Below are positions 2,879-20,670 of a stretch of DNA of 24,714 bases, one piece after another (within the stretch, counting starts at the first letter, position 1; each line of letters opens with the position of its first letter). The translations under genes were made by a program, and so were the position numbers. A model generated the notes under the pieces. It made no database searches. It was not told the origin of the DNA and saw nothing but the letters and a program-made list of their open reading frames with translations. Source of the stretch: a virus; the IMG/VR virus record IMGVR_UViG_3300040807_002199, positions 1 to 24,714 of that record; one strand, given 5' to 3'.

Positions 2879-3535
2879 CTAGTCAATTATTGCGAAGCCC
2901 CATCTCGCCTCGACTTGATATACGTCTATACCAAGTTCATCACGCAGTCTCTTCGGGGACTCCTTGTGTTTGATCCTATCGAGGTCGTCTAGAATAAGGC
3001 ATTTTATATTGCCCTCTCTTTTTGCAGCTTCTAAGATAACGCCTAGTTCCTTTTGTCCGTTAGGTCCACCTGAGTCAAGTCCTACCATAACACGCTGGTC
3101 TTTTTTCTCTTGGAGTATTTTAGACAGCCAGTTTTCTTCTTCCGCTACATTTTGAATTTGTATTCTCTCAACCCAGTTGCTGGGTATGTCTTTTCGTTCT
3201 AGGGAGTTCGCGTGATTGAGGAACACATGAGGTAGGTATCCTACGTTTTCCAGAGCCTTATTGTAAGACACCCAGTTAGTCTCACAAGAGTGAACATCTA
3301 GTCCTGTGAAAGCAAAAGAAGTTGTGGTCCCCCTTCCCAGAAAAGTTCCCGTCTCGATGATGCAGTCTATTTTATATTTCTTAGCTAGAAGACAAGCAAC
3401 TTCTGATAATCTCGCTGATGTGAGAGCCATCGCGTTATTAGTTTCTATCCGCTTAGATTTTAGCGAACTGACGCCTAGTTTATCCCTAAATGGTTTTGAA
3501 ATATTATGATTATCTTCTAGTATGTTTACTATCAT
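2879..3535 (-). CDS. SAM-dependent methyltransferase-fold protein (putative)
   Basis: Encodes 218 residues from the ATG at 3535. The motif CIIETGTFLGRGTTTS looks like class I methyltransferase motif I (E-T-G-x-x-x-G), followed by a strand ending in HSCETNW that could hold the acidic ribose-binding residue. Further on, VMVGLDSGGPNGQKELGVIL and CLILDDLDRI fit later strands of a Methyltransf_24-like fold. The target is unknown: a sugar, a protein or a small molecule. A longer reading from 3610 would overlap the divergent gene at 3551 by 60 bases, so the shorter start is preferred. It is on the opposite strand to its structural neighbours, as is typical of an acquired 'moron' gene, and lies back to back with a sulfotransferase-like gene. 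Confidence 0.6.
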   Translation of the reverse strand: MIVNILEDNHNISKPFRDKLGVSSLKSKRIETNNAMALTSARLSEVACLLAKKYKIDCIIETGTFLGRGTTTSFAFTGLDVHSCETNWVSYNKALENVGYLPHVFLNHANSLERKDIPSNWVERIQIQNVAEEENWLSKILQEKKDQRVMVGLDSGGPNGQKELGVILEAAKREGNIKCLILDDLDRIKHKESPKRLRDELGIDVYQVEARWGFAIID

Positions 3536-11921: not shown

Positions 11922-14088
11922 CGTTTGTGTCTATTTCAGAATCATTGAAGGACAAGTAATTGTCTATGTCATATTTTGGACTTAAATCTATTGTCCACTT
12001 CTTTCCCCCACCATGTCCCGAAGATTTTATCGGGCGCAGTCTTGGGTTGGCTTTATGAGCTTCTTCCATAGCACAAAACCCTCTTCGAACAAACTCTAGG
12101 TTTTGTGACATACCAACAGAACGTCCGTTGTTAAATTCATGCACTAGGACTTGGAAGTTCGTCAATGTCCCCCTCCAAGATTCGTCATCTAAGTTTTCTG
12201 CGTCTCTGTATTTCTCTACAAAGAACTCTACAAGCTCTGCGATAGCACTTCTACTTGAGTTGTCGTATGCGGCAGAGACGATTGATTCATCAATGAATGA
12301 GTCAACTCCGAACCTGCTGAAATCATTTAGTTCTTGCGGGATCTGCCAATCAAGAAGAAATTTTGCAAAGTGAGGGAGTTCCATTTCAATAGTTTGCTCA
12401 AGGTCATGGCTAGGGGGGAAATCACTCGTTGCGAAATCTGAAATACGGAGTGCCATAATCTTATCCCGGTTTGATGAGTCAAGCGCGGGGATAACTGTGA
12501 GACTATTCGCATCCATGTTCAGAGACATAATCACCCTGCCCGTCCACGGGACTGAAAGCGTGTCGGCATACTTCGCTTGATACTCGATTCTTGGGTTGGC
12601 TACTGCTCTCTTGATAAGCTCAGTGGCTTTTCGTTGGTCTTCAAAAGATGCCGCACTAACCGTGTCATCAATTACCCAGGCCGCTGACCTGCCCAGGTCT
12701 TTATTGAATTTGGTGTGTCCGCTCAAATAGTCGCTCGCGTCAGCGAATCCCCCAACCAAATCCCCGATCACCCGGTTAGAAAGCAGTGACTTCCCTTTGT
12801 TAGTCATTCCCACTAAGAGGAGTGCTTGCCCCTGCTGGAACTTGAAGTTTAAGGCCGCATCATAGAAACGCTTCATCCAAGAATAAAAGTAATCTGTGGC
12901 TGGTCTGTCCTCCGCTGGGCTGAACAGTTGGGAAAGCCACCCGTGTAGGAAGGGCCAATTTTTTGGGTCGCCTGAGTCCGCTGGCTGGATTGCTTTATTG
13001 GATGCGTTGTTAAGGATTCGGTGTCCATTATAGGTCACTAACCTCTCGTTTGAGAAGACAACTGGTGCAATTTCGTCTACGCGGTTTTGGTTGCTGACCA
13101 TCAATACCGCCGAATCCACTTCAGAGATGGACTGCCCTTTCTTGGTTTTTGTCGAGAACCCCTTTTGTCTAAGCTCCAGAATTAACTGGTCCTTCGGTAT
13201 TGTAACAGCACACCCGTGCAGCAGCTTGTAAAATGACCTCCCATTGAACCAGTAGTCATCGAGGACCACTGCAATTTTCTTCTCCTCATATTTCTCAATG
13301 AAAGCAGAACCGAAGATGTCTCTCCACGACACAAACCCTTTTCCTGCCCTGTCGCTGTAGCAGATCATTCCATCTTCTCCGACTTGGCAACCTTCGCGGT
13401 TGATCCCATCCCCTATCCAGAATAGTGGACCTCGCGCCCCGATTTCGAAGTCCCCTAACCACCTACCGGGGAAGACTTCTTCTACTTTTTCGGCAATAAC
13501 ATCGAGCGGGACTGTGATGTCTGACGCTACGATTGGTTTCTTCTGGATCGCTCTGTTAAGAGCCGCATGAATAACGGAGCAGGGCAGGGGCTTGCCTATT
13601 TCTTTCCAATCTTCTCCCGCTTCAAAATATTGGTTAGGCTTGAAAGCGCAATCATCGAACCCCGCCAGCAATCGCTGTGCTTTCGTGGCTTTGCCAATCT
13701 CTCTTATGAAGGTGTCATAAAGGTTTTTATCAATGGGGAGCGGCTCTTCAAACTCCCAAATAGCCCTGGCGTATCCACTGAAGGTTTTGCAAATCCACTT
13801 CGGAGCGTAGGGAGTCGTATCATTTATTTGTATCTCTGCGACATCCCAATCTACTGGGGCATCATAGTCTGCAATGAACCCCAATACTCTATTGACGTGG
13901 TTGCTGTTTGAAACTCTCTCTCCAGGGGTATCTCCCTCGCACATACTAATGAAGGCGTGGTCAGTGTCCACGGAGGAACTCCAATCCCTAAACTCCGCTT
14001 TACTTTTGAAGTTCGGTTTATTCTTCGGGAGTTTACTTGGTTCAATGTTTCGGGCTTCTTTATCTCTCAGGTTTTTGATGTATCTCAT
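11911..14088 (-). CDS. Primase-helicase: AEP-like N-terminus plus SF3 helicase
   Basis: Encodes 725 residues. Around residues 70-80, GFIADYDAPVDWD resembles the metal-binding D-x-D strand of archaeo-eukaryotic-type primases, with FDDCAFKPNQYFEAG further on. The C-terminal half is a superfamily 3 helicase: Walker A GMTNKGKS (427-434), Walker B AAWVIDD (469-475), motif C VIMSLNMD (519-526) and a likely arginine finger NRDK (540-543). Such proteins prime and unwind DNA at replication forks. It is the last gene of the minus-strand replication run and overlaps the polymerase stop by four bases (ATGA), so the two are probably made together. The primase assignment is less sure than the helicase. Confidence 0.8.
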   Translation of the reverse strand: MRYIKNLRDKEARNIEPSKLPKNKPNFKSKAEFRDWSSSVDTDHAFISMCEGDTPGERVSNSNHVNRVLGFIADYDAPVDWDVAEIQINDTTPYAPKWICKTFSGYARAIWEFEEPLPIDKNLYDTFIREIGKATKAQRLLAGFDDCAFKPNQYFEAGEDWKEIGKPLPCSVIHAALNRAIQKKPIVASDITVPLDVIAEKVEEVFPGRWLGDFEIGARGPLFWIGDGINREGCQVGEDGMICYSDRAGKGFVSWRDIFGSAFIEKYEEKKIAVVLDDYWFNGRSFYKLLHGCAVTIPKDQLILELRQKGFSTKTKKGQSISEVDSAVLMVSNQNRVDEIAPVVFSNERLVTYNGHRILNNASNKAIQPADSGDPKNWPFLHGWLSQLFSPAEDRPATDYFYSWMKRFYDAALNFKFQQGQALLLVGMTNKGKSLLSNRVIGDLVGGFADASDYLSGHTKFNKDLGRSAAWVIDDTVSAASFEDQRKATELIKRAVANPRIEYQAKYADTLSVPWTGRVIMSLNMDANSLTVIPALDSSNRDKIMALRISDFATSDFPPSHDLEQTIEMELPHFAKFLLDWQIPQELNDFSRFGVDSFIDESIVSAAYDNSSRSAIAELVEFFVEKYRDAENLDDESWRGTLTNFQVLVHEFNNGRSVGMSQNLEFVRRGFCAMEEAHKANPRLRPIKSSGHGGGKKWTIDLSPKYDIDNYLSFNDSEIDTNEPF

Positions 14089-15845
14089 TTTTCGTATCTT
14101 TGCAGTATTTTTCCCTCGGCTTCAAGTGGAATCTTTGAAATCCACTCTGGTGGCGTGGATAATATCCTAGTTATGTCCTCCAGAGCCTTCTCAGCTTTGT
14201 CTTCGTCCACCTCTACGACCACCTCATCGTGGACGTGAAACAGTATCCAATATCCTTCTTTTCTGATTCGGAGCATCGCGTCAGTGAAAATATCCCTCGC
14301 CAATGCAGAGGCGGCGTTTTCCGCTAAAATCCCACCCCAAAGTTTCATAGCGACTTTGTTTGACCCTTTTGTAATTTTGGCTACTAGCTCTATCCCCCTA
14401 GATGTTTTATTGGAATACAAACTCCCATATCTAAGTTTCCTGCCAGAAGGCAAAGAGATTTCAAAAGGGCATTCTGAATCATAAGCAACATTCAAAGAAT
14501 CATTTAAGTCCCTCCAATACCTAGTTACTTTAGGGAGGCTGCTCCGGTAGAGTGCTACAGACTTAGCGGCTTCTTTTTCTGTTGTTCCGCTAAACTCACT
14601 AAATCTTTTCGCCCCCACTCCGTAGCCGCATCCAAGAGCCATCGTCTTTACGGTGTGCCTGAGAGAAGGGTCTTCCTTTTTCAAAGACCCTTTCGACTCG
14701 TCCCACAGCCCAAACTGGATAGCGAACGCTTCGTAGATGTCATCTGATTCCTCGATTCTCTTTAGCATCCCTGAGTCCCCCGACAACCAGGATAATGTTC
14801 TAACTTCGATCTGTGATAAGTCAACCACTACGAGTTTTTTTCCTTTTGGGGCGCAGATTACTTTCCTCATGTCTACCCCGAACAGTTCACCACGCGGCAT
14901 GTTCTGAAGGTTTAGGTTCCCGCCGCTGCCGCTGAATCTTCCCGTGTGCGCCCCCCAATACATCAACCCCCCGTAGTATCTTCCATTCTGCATAGTAGCG
15001 GCCCGGAAGGATAACATTTTTTTCTTGAGCGCATTTATTCGTCTCCAGTTCCTAGTTGCCCCGATCCAAAGAAACTTTTTACTGTGGGCGCGAAACCAGC
15101 GTTCGGTTTCTTCATTATCTTTCGCCAGTGATGCAGGGGGGACTAGCCCGTTCTTCCTGCACTCATCGTTAAAGGCCGCTCTCGATAAAAGTTTCTTCTC
15201 CCCAATCCAGGGGATGTTTTGTTCGGCCAAAAAAAGTTCTTTATTGAGGGTAGCGATACACTCCTCAATGTAGTCGGAGTCTACTGGGATACCTCCCTGG
15301 GCTGCTTTCCGATTCATAACGCTGATCTCTCTTTCCTTTTTCGGCCACAGGGGTTCAAGTTTCTGCCAAAGAGCCAAGCAATACTCGGAGTCTTTAGTGG
15401 CGTATTCCAGAACCTCTTCTTTGAATAAAGAGTCCATACCGTCCCACTTCTGCCCCTTCATTGTGTCGCGGGTTTCTTTACTTAGATCTATCCCTAAGAC
15501 AGCTTTTGAAGCCCCCTTCAAGTTCCTTGGATGCCCACAATACGCTGCCATATCAGCAGTGCAGTGCCATTCCGCGTAGTCCACTTCATCCCACCACTTC
15601 ATCCCAATGCCGAAAAGGTAAAGGGTTTCATCAAAAGCGGCGTTGTGTGACAGAACTCTATTTCCTTCTAGGATACTCCAATCAAACTCTTTCGGGTGTC
15701 CCACATAAACATATCCGTCATCTCCTACAACACTCACCATGTAAGCATCGAAGTCTGGGTGAGAGAAATAACCTAGCGGTCCCAGAACAGATATGGAGCA
15801 TTCCTTGTCGTAGTAGGACTCAAAGTCCAGCGCGTATGTTTTCAT
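14085..15845 (-). CDS. polA: Family A DNA polymerase with 3'-5' exonuclease
   Basis: Encodes 586 residues from the ATG at 15845, which overlaps the previous stop (ATGA); a TTG six codons upstream is less likely. The exonuclease domain is intact: DFES (Asp7, Glu9), HNAAFDE (67-73), Y-x3-D (148-152). The polymerase domain has TGRFSGSGGNLNLQNMP (301-317), motif A VDLSQIEVR (341-349, Asp342), motif B RHTVKTMALGCGYG (396-409) and motif C FHVHDEVV (536-543). There is no 5'-3' exonuclease domain, as usual for phages. In motif B the residue matching E. coli Phe762 is Leu (Leu404). It is the replicative polymerase, probably working with the phage clamp (20676-21752) and the primase-helicase next to it. 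Confidence 0.95.
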   Translation of the reverse strand: MKTYALDFESYYDKECSISVLGPLGYFSHPDFDAYMVSVVGDDGYVYVGHPKEFDWSILEGNRVLSHNAAFDETLYLFGIGMKWWDEVDYAEWHCTADMAAYCGHPRNLKGASKAVLGIDLSKETRDTMKGQKWDGMDSLFKEEVLEYATKDSEYCLALWQKLEPLWPKKEREISVMNRKAAQGGIPVDSDYIEECIATLNKELFLAEQNIPWIGEKKLLSRAAFNDECRKNGLVPPASLAKDNEETERWFRAHSKKFLWIGATRNWRRINALKKKMLSFRAATMQNGRYYGGLMYWGAHTGRFSGSGGNLNLQNMPRGELFGVDMRKVICAPKGKKLVVVDLSQIEVRTLSWLSGDSGMLKRIEESDDIYEAFAIQFGLWDESKGSLKKEDPSLRHTVKTMALGCGYGVGAKRFSEFSGTTEKEAAKSVALYRSSLPKVTRYWRDLNDSLNVAYDSECPFEISLPSGRKLRYGSLYSNKTSRGIELVAKITKGSNKVAMKLWGGILAENAASALARDIFTDAMLRIRKEGYWILFHVHDEVVVEVDEDKAEKALEDITRILSTPPEWISKIPLEAEGKILQRYEK

Positions 15846-16024
15846 TTTTGCTTCCCACAACAAAAGACATCGTTTTCATCTGTCCAGTATTCCAAGAGGA
15901 TGCTCTCCTCCTCTAAGAACCCGATTAAACGCTCTGTCTGGTCGGGGTCGGGTTCTAGGGCTTCTACCAACGAGTGGAGGAAGTCTATCATTTCATCTGT
16001 ATCAACGTCTTCAATATTTGTCAT
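15842..16024 (-). CDS. Small acidic hypothetical protein ahead of the polymerase
   Basis: Encodes 60 residues (MTNIEDVDTDEMIDFLHSLV...), strongly acidic, with an all-helical look and a Cys pair near the end (VFCCGKQK). Its stop overlaps the polymerase start, suggesting coupling. The start is unusual: only four bases separate the ATG from the T-run of a terminator on the same strand. An upstream in-frame ATG at 16048 lies in the hairpin loop and would give an MGGVFFLL lead. No family is recognised; an acidic protein here might modulate the polymerase, but this is a guess. Confidence 0.55.
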   Translation of the reverse strand: MTNIEDVDTDEMIDFLHSLVEALEPDPDQTERLIGFLEEESILLEYWTDENDVFCCGKQK

Positions 16025-16078: not shown

Positions 16079-16252
16079 TTATGCTTCTTCCAACGAATCA
16101 GAAAGCACTTGATGGGCTGCGCCTAGTCTTTTGAGTTCAGTCTCCAAGTGTTCTTTAGCGGCTTCAAGTTCATCGAGTTTCTGTTCTAATTCGGAACGCA
16201 CAGCCTCGATGTTGGCTACGTGTTCCTTGACGAGTTCAATGTCGTAGCTCAT
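16079..16252 (-). CDS. Coiled-coil microprotein, 57 residues
   Basis: Encodes MSYDIELVKEHVANIEAVRS, then a charged heptad region (EQKLDELEAAKEHLETELKR) and LGAAHQVLSDSLEEA. It is almost entirely one coiled coil of about seven heptads. Its ATG overlaps the stop of the upstream gene by four bases (ATGA), and the strong terminator follows the stop, so it is a well-framed gene although very short. It probably forms a dimer or binds the product of the upstream gene. The function is unknown. Confidence 0.65.
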   Translation of the reverse strand: MSYDIELVKEHVANIEAVRSELEQKLDELEAAKEHLETELKRLGAAHQVLSDSLEEA

Positions 16253-16884
16253 TGCTGAAACATTTCCAAGAACTGAACCACCTCATCAGCGGCTACCTCT
16301 GAGGAGTTTTCTAAGCTAGGAGAATACCAGCTATACTTGCCTTTGGTGAGCAAGATAGACTTCATATTCCAAACTTTAGCCGAAAGATCCGCCCCTGCGT
16401 TCACTGCTGCAAACGTAGCAAGACGCTTGTATGTGTTGCGGTAGGCATCCTTCTGGACGTTGATCCGTCCAAGAGCATACTGATTATCTCCAATCGGCAC
16501 GGTGTATACCGTTTGGTCAGCATCCTCACCTCCGTGGAAGAGGATGCGGATGTCAGCGAACTCAAGGATCTTATATCCTGAGTCTGCTTCCAAGGCATCA
16601 CGGTCTTCGTGGTTCCACGCGATGCGAGGCATCTCGTCCTCATCGAATGGAATGTCTTCACGCCAACCCTTACGGGCGGATACGATTGAAACCGCAACAG
16701 GTTCATCGGCTTCTGCGATGCAGTGCTTTTGATCCAGCATGATTGACCCAAGGGGTCCGTCGATCTGACTCATTTTCTGAACCAGGTTTACTTTGGGGAT
16801 GTCGATGTCCTCCGGGTCGATGATGAATCCTGGAGTCGCGGACGACAGTTCTTTCTTATCTTCTACTATTTCCGATTTTGCCAT
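16249..16884 (-). CDS. Hypothetical replication-module protein (possible ssDNA-binding role)
   Basis: Encodes 211 residues. The N-terminus is disordered, then comes a beta-rich part with IPKVNLVQKMSQIDGPLGSI and KGWREDIPFDEDEMPRIAW, and later VYTVPIGDNQYALGRINVQK. I recall related unnamed proteins in other phages next to a PD-(D/E)XK nuclease. Location between nuclease and polymerase, an acidic C-terminal part and an A/C-rich leader suited to high expression would fit a single-strand DNA-binding protein. No OB-fold signature can be proved by eye, so this is only a suggestion. It overlaps the coiled-coil gene by ATGA. Confidence 0.6.
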   Translation of the reverse strand: MAKSEIVEDKKELSSATPGFIIDPEDIDIPKVNLVQKMSQIDGPLGSIMLDQKHCIAEADEPVAVSIVSARKGWREDIPFDEDEMPRIAWNHEDRDALEADSGYKILEFADIRILFHGGEDADQTVYTVPIGDNQYALGRINVQKDAYRNTYKRLATFAAVNAGADLSAKVWNMKSILLTKGKYSWYSPSLENSSEVAADEVVQFLEMFQQ

Positions 16885-16911: not shown

Positions 16912-17784
16912 CTATTTCGAGAGTGTGAACCTCTCTTCAGACTTTGACATAATGCTCTTCTCTTCAAGCGTGTCAAGAAATTCTGTTTTTATTGCTGCTT
17001 TTTCTTTTGTTTTCGCGGTTTCAGATACCGCTTTCGCAAGCCTTCCGATAGGGAAAGATGCTAACTTCAAAAGATGGTCCTCGGTGATTCCGAAATCTTT
17101 AGCTGTCTCAATGAGTCCACCAACGTCTTCTATTTTAGACGTTGCGCCCATTGATTTTAATTTCAGCCCTGGGAAGACCATCCCCTCTTTCGCCAGTTGG
17201 ACCGCTTTTCTTTTGTAGGACATAGCCCACTTTTCAACGACTTTCGCGAGGTCATAAAGGACTTCAACTTGTTCGGGATCATCTGTCTCATCAAAATCAA
17301 CACCTTCAAATTGATGCCCTACTTTTTTAGCGACTTCCGAAACCAACCCCACCAGGGCAGGACACGACTCTTCGTGTCGGCAGAACCTGCAATTTTGTGT
17401 TGGGTTTAGGTTTTGAGTCGGAGGGGTTCCATCTTGCCAGTAGTGTCGAGTGCCAGTGGCTAAAGCGATCACCGTAGACAGTTCCTTTCTCAACGCGGGG
17501 ACATCCTCTCTGGTAAATGTGTGGTGAGGGGATTCGTTGTAAAGCGGGATGTAGAAAACAAACGTGACCTCTTCTACTTCGGGATATTTTTGGAATACTC
17601 CCAAGGTGTAGGCTTTTGCCTGGTAGTTTTTCGACGGGTGGTCAATCTGACTTATCCCCGTTTTGTAATCCGCGAGAAGTGCTTTTTTACCGTTGTAAAT
17701 GGTAAGCCTGTCGCATGTTCCGAACGTGGACAACCCATAGTCCAGTTCGATGTCTAAAACGATTTCATTGTAGTCTTCTTTCAT
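16912..17784 (-). CDS. PD-(D/E)XK Fe-S nuclease, C-terminal piece of a split gene
   Basis: Encodes 290 residues from the ATG at 17784, which overlaps the previous stop by ATGA (an ATG at 17799 would add five residues). It starts directly at nuclease motif II: LDYGLSTFGTCDRL (Asp25), then ALLADYKTG (Asp39, Lys41), and NYQAKAYTLG (Gln55, Tyr59), the core of RecB/Cas4/DUF2800-type nucleases. NCRFCRHEESCPAL (Cys132, Cys135, Cys141) looks like three of the four ligands of a 4Fe-4S cluster. The N-terminal part with the first cysteine and motif I (GTRIHEALE) is missing here and is found 1.1 kb upstream at 18868-19113. The C-terminal 130 residues are helical and may bind DNA. Likely role: DNA end processing for recombination. 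Confidence 0.8.
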   Translation of the reverse strand: MKEDYNEIVLDIELDYGLSTFGTCDRLTIYNGKKALLADYKTGISQIDHPSKNYQAKAYTLGVFQKYPEVEEVTFVFYIPLYNESPHHTFTREDVPALRKELSTVIALATGTRHYWQDGTPPTQNLNPTQNCRFCRHEESCPALVGLVSEVAKKVGHQFEGVDFDETDDPEQVEVLYDLAKVVEKWAMSYKRKAVQLAKEGMVFPGLKLKSMGATSKIEDVGGLIETAKDFGITEDHLLKLASFPIGRLAKAVSETAKTKEKAAIKTEFLDTLEEKSIMSKSEERFTLSK

Positions 17785-18014
17785 TTTACTAATCTCCATT
17801 TAAACTGACCCCTAGCTTTTTCGGGGAATATTTTCAACAACTTTCTTGAGTCTTTTCTAACCACCAAGTCTATTTTCAAATCTGACAAGGTTTTTACTAT
17901 GTTGGTTTTTTTGGGCCAAGCAACCTTCTCTTCTATTTCTTTGGAAGTGAGAACTTCCCCATCACTCAATTCTTTGAGTATCTTGTCTCTCAACGGACCA
18001 TATTTTAAATCCAT
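17781..18014 (-). CDS. Small winged-helix-like DNA-binding protein (putative)
   Basis: Encodes 77 residues. GEVLTSKEIEEKVAWPKKTN followed by IVKTLSDLKIDLVVRKDS reads as helix-turn-helix plus wing, common in phage regulators. The C-terminus is basic (KARGQFKWRLVK). It is the last of four small ORFs lying between the two nuclease pieces and overlaps the C-terminal piece by four bases, so it may be co-translated with it. It may be a regulator; the assignment is by pattern only. Confidence 0.5.
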   Translation of the reverse strand: MDLKYGPLRDKILKELSDGEVLTSKEIEEKVAWPKKTNIVKTLSDLKIDLVVRKDSRKLLKIFPEKARGQFKWRLVK

Positions 18015-18081
18015 GCGAAATTTCTAAAATACATTCTTCAATTTTTCATAAAACTCTCCGTGGTGGGCGCAATGTCCTTCC

Positions 18082-18297
18082 CTAGCGAATAATATCAAAT
18101 TCACCAAAGGGGATTTCAAATTCTTTCCCCATAGCGCAGGATGCCCATAATACTCCCTTATCCCAGTCGATATGATCGACCATAAGTCGCTCCGTCCAGT
18201 ATCGGATGATGCTGCCGACTTTGAGCGAGTCCGTGTCTAGCTCGTCGTCGCAATCGCAGTCTAGTCCTCCTTGGCAATTTGGGTAGTGGTGTTTCAT
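18082..18297 (-). CDS. Hypothetical protein with Cys-rich N-terminus
   Basis: Encodes 71 residues. The N-terminus MKHHYPNCQGGLDCDCDDEL holds three Cys and two His and could bind zinc. The rest has hydrophobic strands (VGSIIRYWTERLMVDHIDWD) and an acidic end. Preceded by the leader motif AAAAATTGAAAACGA just before the ATG, shared with the gene at 18579. No family is recognised. Confidence 0.5.
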   Translation of the reverse strand: MKHHYPNCQGGLDCDCDDELDTDSLKVGSIIRYWTERLMVDHIDWDKGVLWASCAMGKEFEIPFGEFDIIR

Positions 18298-18327
18298 TCG
18301 TTTTCAATTTTTATTTATAAATGCAAC

Positions 18328-18579
18328 CTAATTAAGCGATACAAAGCACGGAGTTAAATCTCCCATCCACGCCCCAAGGTGATTAAAGTGAAAAAACTCT
18401 ACAGCCTCGTCTCTGGACATACCACCATCATCTTGGAGTTTTTGTATTACCTTGTATTTGTCATAACAAACGATAGGGTCTTGACCGAAGCGTTCTACTA
18501 CCCCAACGATGCAGTCATCATACCCGTCCATTACCAATAGATGGTCTGGATCAAAACCTGAGAATAAATCTTTATTCAT
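18328..18579 (-). CDS. Conserved phage hypothetical protein (DGYDDCIVGVVERFG type)
   Basis: Encodes 83 residues. DGYDDCIVGVVERFGQDPIV, then YDKYKVIQKL, DEAVEFFHFNHLGAWMG and TPCFV match a pattern I recall from many phage genomes, where the usual text is D-x-A-x-x-G-x-x-x-R-F ... FN-x-x-G-A-W-x-G-x-x-TP. The function of that family is unknown to me. It is read from an ATG directly after AAAAATTGAAAA. Confidence 0.6.
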   Translation of the reverse strand: MNKDLFSGFDPDHLLVMDGYDDCIVGVVERFGQDPIVCYDKYKVIQKLQDDGGMSRDEAVEFFHFNHLGAWMGDLTPCFVSLN

Positions 18580-18631
18580 TTTTCAATTTTTAGAGAGAGA
18601 GCTACTGGGCGGACATCTATGCTGTCTCATT

Positions 18632-18657
18632 TAAAATTGGGAGCTTTCGACCCCAAT
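18632..18657 (-). terminator. Probable intrinsic terminator after the small ORF at 18670
   Basis: On the minus strand ATTGGG (18657-18652) pairs with CCCAAT (18641-18636), followed by TTTT. It lies 13 bases beyond the stop of the gene at 18670-18864, in an otherwise gene-free 90-bp gap. If active, the ORFs at 18579 and 18297 need their own promoter, which the rest of this gap could hold. Confidence 0.45.
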
Positions 18658-18669
18658 CCCCAGCTAAAA

Positions 18670-18864
18670 TTAGTCTTCGGTCAATTCAATCACCTTAGCG
18701 CATCTCTTTGAGATCACCTTTATCCCATCTCTGAGAAGGCTGCGCTGCTCATAAATGTCAAGGTCAGCGGAATTATCGGAAATGCTTTTCAACAGTTCGT
18801 CAAGGTCGTGTTTTAAAACTTTGTATTGAAGCACCAAAGAAGCCTCATTTGGGTCTTCATTCAT
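18670..18864 (-). CDS. Small helical hypothetical protein
   Basis: Encodes 64 residues, helical and charged (YKVLKHDLDELLKSISDNSA). It starts three bases after the stop of the N-terminal nuclease piece (TAAAATATG) and is followed by a probable terminator. No family is recognised. Tight spacing to the nuclease piece suggests they share a transcript. Confidence 0.5.
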   Translation of the reverse strand: MNEDPNEASLVLQYKVLKHDLDELLKSISDNSADLDIYEQRSLLRDGIKVISKRCAKVIELTED

Positions 18865-18867
18865 ATT

Positions 18868-19113
18868 TTATTTCTCAAAGTTCGACATAAACTCGCGCTC
18901 CATCTCGACGATCTGCTCGTAGATTGCGACCTCCTCTTCATCGTGGAGCGCACTAGGGTCATGGACTTCTAGAGCTTCATGAATCCTGGTTCCTCGTTCC
19001 GCTGCCTCTGAAGTGCCTTCTGTTCCGTGGAAGCCGGGACAAGCTGCCACATACTTCAATCCTGACGGGCCGAACTCTGCGTGTCCTCGATTTGAATGAT
19101 CTGGTGTGTCCAT
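18868..19113 (-). CDS. PD-(D/E)XK Fe-S nuclease, N-terminal piece of a split gene
   Basis: Encodes 81 residues. FGPSGLKYVAACPGF (Cys25) followed by EAAERGTRIHEALEVHDP (His45) is the standard start of DUF2800/Cas4/RecB-like nucleases: S-x-x-x-x-x-x-x-C-P and then motif I G-T-x-x-H-E-A-L-E. It then ends after a short helix (EQIVEMEREFMSNFEK) with TAA, just where an intact relative would continue into motif II. The missing part is found at 16912-17784. The ends are clean: the start overlaps the previous stop by one base and a new ORF begins three bases after the stop. Either two chains assemble into one enzyme or the gene has been broken by insertion. Confidence 0.75.
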   Translation of the reverse strand: MDTPDHSNRGHAEFGPSGLKYVAACPGFHGTEGTSEAAERGTRIHEALEVHDPSALHDEEEVAIYEQIVEMEREFMSNFEK

Positions 19114-19397
19114 TAGTTGTATGATAATTTAGATTTTTCTGGGTTAACTGTTTTCATCTTCACTATGCGCTCAAGGAAGTCAACATAATCTTCTGAGTAT
19201 TTTGACTCCTTCTCGTAGCAAACTTTATGTTCTATCTCTGAGTATGCCATGCCAGCGATGATGCCGAAGAGGATTGCAGCTTCCTCGTCAATAGAAGTCT
19301 CTTTTCCTTTGATGTCGAGCTTATAGCGTTCGATCTCTAAGAAGGCTATCGCTTTGGCTTTAGCAAAATCAATTTTGAATATCTCTTCAATTTCCAT
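19113..19397 (-). CDS. Hypothetical helical protein
   Basis: Encodes 94 residues, mainly helical (IDFAKAKAIAFLEIERYKLD and a hydrophobic ILFGIIAGMAYSEIEHKVCY). The first 11 bases overlap the end of the helicase gene, and its stop overlaps the next start, so it is part of the tightly coupled run. A GGAG lies about seven bases before the ATG. No family is recognised; position suggests a helicase or nuclease partner. Confidence 0.55.
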   Translation of the reverse strand: MEIEEIFKIDFAKAKAIAFLEIERYKLDIKGKETSIDEEAAILFGIIAGMAYSEIEHKVCYEKESKYSEDYVDFLERIVKMKTVNPEKSKLSYN

Positions 19398-20670
19398 GTA
19401 GCATCTCCATGTTTTGTATTTTCTTATTTATCGCTTTCACAACGTGTTCTTCAATCGAGTCAGCGGCCACAATGATTTGCTGAACCGCATCTGACTTAGC
19501 ACCGTTTCGGTGAATCCTCCCCAAGCACTGTAAGTAGTGCTTTGCTGAGAACGTGGGGCTAATCAGAGAGACTCTGGGTCGCTCTCCATTAACATCGTGG
19601 AGAGATATGCCTGTCCCCCCAGCCGCGATATTAACTACGAGAACCTCGACCTTATCTTCTTGAAAAGAATCAATCGCCTCTTGCCGTTCGGAAGCAGTCT
19701 GCCTACCGTCAATCTTGAGGCAGTCGAGCCTGGTGCAGAGGGCATCTACCGTGTCTGAGAAGTTTACGAATAGAACAACGCTGTTCCCCTCTAGCCTCAA
19801 CTCTTCGGCCATGTCCGCCAGGTCAGGAACCTTCATAGCTTCTGCTAACTGTCTAGCCCTCAACAGGTTCACCAGAACGTGTTCGCTATCCTCGACTGTA
19901 TGGTCTTCCAGTAGCTTGTCTATGATCTCAGGGGTGATGCCCAGTTCGTCATAGGCTTTGATAATATCTTTATAGCTGGAGAATTGTATCGGCTTTACGA
20001 AGACCCGGTTATGCTTGAAGGAGTCGGGGAAGTCTTTCACTGTCAGTTTTTTGACGTTGGAAGAATACATCTTCTCTTTGATGGCGGGTAAGGTGTTCTT
20101 CCGAACGCAGATCCACTGGTTCCAATCGTTTTTCACACATCCATTCCTCTTCATCCAGGAGAACCACGACTCATCTTTATTGAGGTTATGAAGCCCCAAC
20201 ATGAAACCCAATGCCCTCATCTCTGTTGGGTCTTCCGCTGCCGTAGCGGACATCCCGTGAACCCTATACCCCTGCTGGACTAAAGAGATTAGCATCTGGG
20301 CATTCTGGGTGAACGGAGACTTACAGGCGTGAATTTCATCAATAAAGACTAAGCACTTGGGGGGTAGGTTCCAAGTCATTAGCTTTTTTCCCTTCTTACT
20401 CATCCACTGAGTTCTCCCATTGCGGATCTTCTCATAGTTCAATACAAAGCAAGGCTCCACACCATGCTCCTTCAACTCACGCTCCCATGAAGGGACTACT
20501 GCCTTTGGGCAGATAACTGCCACGGGACCATCCCAATCCAAGGCAAGGTGGGCTGCGACTACTGTTTTGCCAGTGCCGACACTGGATGTGTCTAGGGTAT
20601 TCTGGCCTTTAGTGTGTGCCGCTACAAAGAATCCTTTGGACTCTTCCTGCTTCAAAAATAGAGATTTCAT
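19387..20670 (-). CDS. SNF2-like superfamily 2 helicase
   Basis: Encodes 427 residues. Motif I SSVGTGKT (29-36), motif Ia VAVICPKAVVPSW, motif II DEIH (111-114), motif III SAT (141-143), motif V AAGGTGISL (349-357) and motif VI QCLGRIHRNG (381-390) are all present in order, so both RecA-like domains are intact. The arrangement resembles phage SNF2/DEAD-type DNA translocases, used in replication start or fork remodelling. There is no extra nuclease or zinc domain. It starts five bases after the clamp stop with a purine-rich GGGGGA in front of the ATG. Likely partners are the clamp upstream and the nuclease pieces downstream. Confidence 0.85.
   Translation of the reverse strand: MKSLFLKQEESKGFFVAAHTKGQNTLDTSSVGTGKTVVAAHLALDWDGPVAVICPKAVVPSWERELKEHGVEPCFVLNYEKIRNGRTQWMSKKGKKLMTWNLPPKCLVFIDEIHACKSPFTQNAQMLISLVQQGYRVHGMSATAAEDPTEMRALGFMLGLHNLNKDESWFSWMKRNGCVKNDWNQWICVRKNTLPAIKEKMYSSNVKKLTVKDFPDSFKHNRVFVKPIQFSSYKDIIKAYDELGITPEIIDKLLEDHTVEDSEHVLVNLLRARQLAEAMKVPDLADMAEELRLEGNSVVLFVNFSDTVDALCTRLDCLKIDGRQTASERQEAIDSFQEDKVEVLVVNIAAGGTGISLHDVNGERPRVSLISPTFSAKHYLQCLGRIHRNGAKSDAVQQIIVAADSIEEHVVKAINKKIQNMEMLHGN

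Follow-up and report, generated by a model that had tools for sequence, protein, structure and literature searches.

A DUF2800 phage nuclease encoded in two genes, with metal sites predicted to span two chains

In a 24.7-kb virus contig (IMG/VR record IMGVR_UViG_3300040807_002199, positions 1 to 24,714; this whole stretch of 24,714 nucleotides is hereafter called the window), two genes separated by other ORFs correspond to the N-terminal and the C-terminal part of a single DUF2800 nuclease of the PD-(D/E)XK type. Both halves are under strong purifying selection. Most probably, they encode the two chains of one working DUF2800/RecB-like nuclease whose sites would be shared across the chains. 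We infer the assembly, metal cluster, activity, and role of this enzyme; the role is probably to process DNA ends during phage replication or recombination.

Two genes and their single-chain relatives

The nuclease halves and their neighbors in the window are listed here in the direction of transcription.

19387-20670 (-): helicase, upstream flank (Helicase_C, E 2e-13); syntenic in fused and split phages
19113-19397 (-): 94-aa gene upstream of the N half, with a 1-base overlap; conserved in clade A
18868-19113 (-): nuclease N half, 81 aa, with the first cysteine C25, motif I GTRIHEALE, and active-site H45; PF10926 positions 1-68; 67-78% identical to the starts of fused relatives; these residues kept in 12/12 split pairs
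18670-18864 (-): insert ORF, 64 aa, starting 3 nt past the N-half stop; conserved in L003 and L005
18328-18579 (-): insert ORF, 83 aa (phrog_13182, E 1e-18); presence varies among clade A inserts
18082-18297 (-): insert ORF, 71 aa, no confident family; conserved in L003 and L005
17781-18014 (-): hth gene, 77 aa, helix-turn-helix-like by inspection only; sole insert gene common to all split loci
16912-17784 (-): nuclease C half, 290 aa, ORF open to 17799, with motif II GTCD, motif III DYK, Q-x3-Y, and C-x2-C-x5-C; PF10926 positions 92-340 (E 1.5e-19); PDDEXK_1 (E 2.8e-6); ATGA overlap with the upstream gene
16249-16884 (-): 211-aa protein, downstream flank; syntenic in fused and split phages
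14085-15863 (-): family A DNA polymerase, downstream (DNA_pol_A, E 3e-33); syntenic

Both nuclease ORFs of the preliminary description are open where it placed them. As it claimed, the 81-aa protein contains C25-P-G followed by G41-T-R-I-H45-E-A-L-E49 in the ORF translation, and the cysteines are divided 1+3 between the halves, an arrangement kept in all 12 distinct split pairs. The C protein carries in order GTCD, DYK, QAKAY (Q-x3-Y), and CRFCRHEESC (C-x2-C-x5-C). The RecB-like PD-(D/E)XK set (motif I His, motif II Asp, D/E-x-K, and Q-x3-Y) is kept entirely, divided over two chains. The further claim that the C protein begins exactly at motif II stood only in part: the motifs are present, but the start precedes the motif II Asp by ~24 residues and falls at the strand leading in. 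A mechanical ORF finder gives a C ORF of 295 aa starting at 17799. We prefer the 290-aa version beginning at 17784: its ATG shares bases with the TGA that ends the preceding gene (ATGA), and the resulting N terminus, M-x(1-3)-[DE]-Y-[NH]-E-I, is conserved across all three split clades. The gene ends are normal, as previously described, with the C-half start overlapping the hth stop and a 1-base overlap upstream of the N half. Scans for promoters and terminators gave matches no better than chance.

The PF10926 (DUF2800) profile, 368 positions long, matches the C half over positions 92-340 with 63.8 bits, above the cutoff of 21 by itself. The N half matches it in register (E 9e-4, 14 bits), a score that alone is below the family cutoff. 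PHROG 69 (exonuclease) matches both halves. DUF2800 proteins are usually single polypeptides, although this is not strictly defining; here, two ORFs encode the protein, in 18 contigs.

Searches of IMG/VR with each half as query identified fused relatives. Each is a single ORF, 375-418 aa long, with the N piece directly continuous with the C piece: residues 1-79 of the N piece run into the C piece from about its residue 4. Their identity to the window is 67-78% for the N piece and about 40-52% for the C piece, and they match PF10926 across positions 1-341. As the fused relatives carry both pieces in one ORF, a chance pairing of two ORFs is excluded, and the halves do not form two independent families. 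Wider searches confirmed 484 and 352 relative stretches. The best 80 of each were analyzed and yielded, after removal of duplicates, 128 distinct proteins, 116 fused and 12 split; as this set is a sample of the relatives, more splits may exist outside the analyzed best 80s. Among named phages, only distant DUF2800 matches were found. At the join, the fused protein L028 reads FMDNFSGIQEEHNEIQVDVEL, and the split proteins of clade C (see below) read FLETFTAG and a stop, then MITEYNEIQLEIPL, with no residue missing. The match of more than 100 distinct fused relatives from end to end bears out the proposal of one complete nuclease with nothing missing or doubled at the join. The loop at this position varies in length among fused enzymes, with several extra residues in L118, indicating that the break site tolerates change. 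The order of genes in fused phages is helicase, nuclease, 211-aa protein, DNA polymerase A, and 725-aa protein. It is identical in split phages, with the insert between the nuclease halves.

Distribution of the split and genes of the insert

The split, with both halves, was found in the window and in 17 other IMG/VR contigs, always at the same break point. These 18 contigs fall into three diverged clades: A (the window type), B (the L017 type and L216), and C (L169, L175, L176, L182, and L184). C-half sequences diverge by as much as about 45% between the clades, and real genes occupy the gap, which ranges from 465 to 3185 bp: every one of the five clade C contigs has 465 bp, L216 has 482 bp, and the longest gap, 3185 bp, is that of L006 in clade A. 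According to the phylogeny of 127 distinct nuclease proteins, the splits form one clade (SH-aLRT 97) nested among fused enzymes. Repeated independent splits were thus rejected in favor of one origin, and the sequences indicate that the split is old and arose in a single clade. The closest relative of the split clade in this tree is the fused protein L173, which has a very long branch (1.55) and shares the sequence DIELDYGLSTFGTCDR with clade A. The DNA polymerase of the L173 contig is likewise on a long branch. In the polymerase tree, clade A does not group with B and C, and a single clade is not rejected (p-AU 0.25 and 0.39); the split operon may therefore have been transferred sideways.

One contig, 3300040960_002552 (L003/L146), appears as a natural mix of clades. 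Its N half is of clade B: the first 3.2 kb are 99.2-99.5% identical to four contigs of that clade. The 7.3 kb that follow, beginning inside the insert, match the window at 100% identity. The C halves of clades A and B are only 55% identical. The recombination junction between the clade B N half and the clade A C half lies inside the insert at L146:3244-3262. About 17 nt at this junction are present in neither parent, which disfavors a simple assembly chimera, still a conceivable origin. If the mix is real, halves from different clades can pair.

The clade C insert consists of two genes only, hth (85 aa) and orf2 (72-74 aa), in the order N-hth-orf2-C with short overlaps of the ATGA type at all three junctions. 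In clade C and in L216, the whole insert of 465-482 bp is coding, the two genes overlapping or abutting each other and the halves. Clades B and C alone carry orf2. Family and PDB searches with hth and orf2 returned no reliable match, and an apolipoprotein match (E 0.007) was taken as chance. Both belong to families without annotation, and neither the minimal insert nor that of the window gave a homing endonuclease family match of note.

The larger inserts hold diverse cargo. That of 3300030430_004721 (L006:1887-4441) encodes QueD-like (PTPS, E 2.4e-31), radical SAM QueE-like (E 2.6e-13), and nucleoside deoxyribosyltransferase-like proteins, together with a phrog_15826 protein weakly matching a queuine transferase; judging from these matches, this is possibly a 7-deazaguanine DNA modification cassette. 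A 218-aa gene between the halves in clade B (L017:5261-5917) has a homolog at 2883-3535 (-) of the window, with about 70% DNA identity, so this cargo gene seems mobile between sites. An ORF of Gly-Ser/Gly-Thr repeats (GTGSGHGPG...) at L005:3868-4182 is absent from the closely related window insert. Finally, a noncoding stretch of 72 nt (window 18597-18668 (-); L017:5921-5992) is 98.6% identical between clades A and B, although their flanking genes are far apart. It is missing from L018, its exact core occurs in only four other viral contigs, and its predicted folding is little better than that of shuffled sequences (z -1.3).

Among the insert genes, hth stands out as the only one present in every split locus. 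In IMG/VR, its homologs were confined to the 17 other split contigs, all of which have one, and none occurred in 20 large fused contigs. Its position is immediately before the C half or one gene further upstream, with tight overlaps, and its dN/dS of 0.05-0.12 indicates purifying selection. These features would be expected if its product were a third subunit or regulator and the reason why the split persists, beyond a merely tolerated insertion. Such a role, compatible with a two-chain nuclease, is a possibility that we nevertheless consider unlikely: hth has no confident family match, and its association with the split counts only once because all splits share one origin. Slightly more doubtful again is a heterotrimer of the two halves and the hth product, with the cluster ligated across two chains and the hth protein steering or gating the enzyme; the insertion would then have introduced a new subunit.

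Predicted fold, conservation, and origin of the two chains

The fused protein L028 was modeled with AlphaFold2 using an alignment of 84 rows (mean pLDDT 87), which was preferred to a run with 12 sequences (pLDDT 68). In this model, the break maps to residues 79-82, within the loop that links helix 59-76 to strand 82-94. The segments bearing the first Cys and motif I would thus come from the N half, and the central sheet from the C half. The best fold matches in the PDB are the Cas4-family ACE1, AdnA, the Cas4 protein SSO0001, MGME1, 3L0A, and RecE. In SSO0001, Cys32 and Cys188/191/197 ligate a [4Fe-4S] cluster, and His62, Asp99, and Glu113 a metal (PMC4176176). If the motifs are aligned in order with those of SSO0001, each metal site receives one ligand from the N chain; by this analogy both sites, and not only the cluster, should span the chain interface. 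The four-cysteine site, divided 1+3 over the two chains, could by the same analogy be of the 4Fe-4S type. Its metal might be [4Fe-4S], [2Fe-2S], or zinc, as all three have been reported at this site in relatives: the DUF3799 structure 3L0A has zinc (PMC3466216) and the Cas4 protein Pcal_0546 a [2Fe-2S] cluster (PMC4176176). The site need not be essential, since Cys-to-Ala mutants of Pcal_0546 remained active (PMC4176176).

The residues concerned are strictly conserved. In fused numbering, C25, H45, E46, and E49 of the N half and D105, D120, K122, Q136, Y140, C213, C216, and C222 of the C half are kept in 12/12 distinct split pairs. One N-terminal Cys and C-x2-C-x5-C are found in all 12 and in every fused protein covering the site. 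The dN/dS values of split pairs are 0.02-0.21 for the N half and about 0-0.14 for the C half, compared with 0.03-0.05 for fused controls; single values are rough, as some pairs show few substitutions or saturation at synonymous sites. A second intact DUF2800 copy would have spoken against the preliminary description; none turned up in the window or in 15 related split records, which reach 58.7 kb. The largest split records (57-59 kb) are close in size to the larger fused contigs (55-76 kb); all are metagenomic and many are incomplete, so another nuclease could conceivably lie in a stretch that they do not cover.

These data bear on the idea that the C half is the nuclease alone and the N half a relic or a protein with another role. 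The C half does carry D, DxK, Q-x3-Y, and three cysteines, and its Pfam score passes the cutoff unaided. However, the N half is the better conserved of the two (about 75% vs. 50% identity to fused relatives), it holds the motif I His and the first Cys in every distinct pair, its dN/dS is about as low as that of the fused enzymes, and core helices of the modeled fold come from it. We therefore regard an independent C half as improbable.

Phage replication genes are frequent sites of introns and inteins, and the exact join without residue loss resembles that left by an intron. Restoration of a full-length protein by a self-splicing intron, a split intein, or ribosomal bypass is nonetheless very unlikely. 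The minimal insert consists of two small overlapping genes with ATGA junctions, which excludes an intron or intein; it is wholly coding in clade C and L216, with hth under purifying selection, and inserts vary in both content and length. No Rfam intron was detected in eight loci. There are no intein ends: the N ORF stops 2-17 residues past the join, and every C half carries a start codon of its own. Frameshifts confined to one contig are common in metagenomes, which could point to a recent break or to an error of sequencing or assembly, but a break shared by 18 contigs of three such divergent clades, with true genes in the gap, makes this explanation practically negligible. The recurrence of the split, the conserved residues, the low dN/dS, and the position of the break in a loop of a confident model of the fused enzyme agree with the earlier proposal of a working split enzyme.

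The two-chain nuclease probably arose as follows. An ancestral single nuclease gene within a helicase-nuclease-DNA polymerase replication module would have been interrupted once, most simply by a cassette of two genes (hth and orf2), at the loop that connects the first long core helix with the first core strand. This event would have left an N part with a stop and a C part with a translationally coupled start, and further genes would later have gathered in the gap. The chains, produced from one operon with coupled starts, would reassemble after translation into one enzyme. From the small chain (about 80 aa) would come the first cysteine and, in motif I, the active-site His; the large chain would contribute D, D-x-K, Q-x3-Y, and the other three cysteines. 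Both the catalytic metal site and the four-cysteine site (4Fe-4S by analogy) would form across the interface.

Comparison with known nucleases and split genes

Both halves match DUF2800 (PF10926) and the PHROG 69 phage exonucleases in order, but the members of these families found otherwise are single chains, and the present protein consists of two. The "iron staple" RecB-like nucleases Cas4 (SSO0001), AddB, and Dna2 share the fold, the order of motifs, and the N-terminal Cys with C-x2-C-x5-C. In them, one chain provides the four cysteines and the His, whereas here two chains would do so, the metal being assigned by analogy. We found no paper describing a split exonuclease or RecB-type nuclease in the open-access literature. 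If our reading is right, this would be, as far as these searches show, the first RecB-like nuclease whose active and four-cysteine sites are each built from two separately translated chains. It would provide a natural, old, and conserved split site for the Cas4/AddB-type fold, useful both for engineering split nucleases and for studying metal-cluster insertion across a chain interface. The locus also shows that a phage can hold a gap inside a core replication enzyme as a collecting place for other genes.

Other genes in pieces are known, and their features, namely genes between the halves and fused homologs in relatives, are present here. In fractured genes with split inteins (Dassa et al. 2009, as cited in PMC10448857), gene halves are similarly parted by other genes; the present locus differs in that it has no intein halves and its chains would not be rejoined by splicing. 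Closer parallels are phage replication enzymes split into two chains by inserted DNA: NrdA of phage Aeh1 (mobE) and the gp43A/gp43B polymerase of phages 25 and 44RR, which have been shown to work, and the T4 topoisomerase gene 60/39 (mobA), which probably does (PMC2988022). Their inserts are homing endonuclease genes or untranslated spacers, in contrast to the small unannotated genes found here, and, unlike in those enzymes, the putative metal ligands are divided between the chains. Judged from sequence, what appears new relative to known split enzymes is thus the distribution of two metal sites over two chains, an insert of unannotated small genes without a recognizable homing endonuclease, and a strictly associated hth gene.
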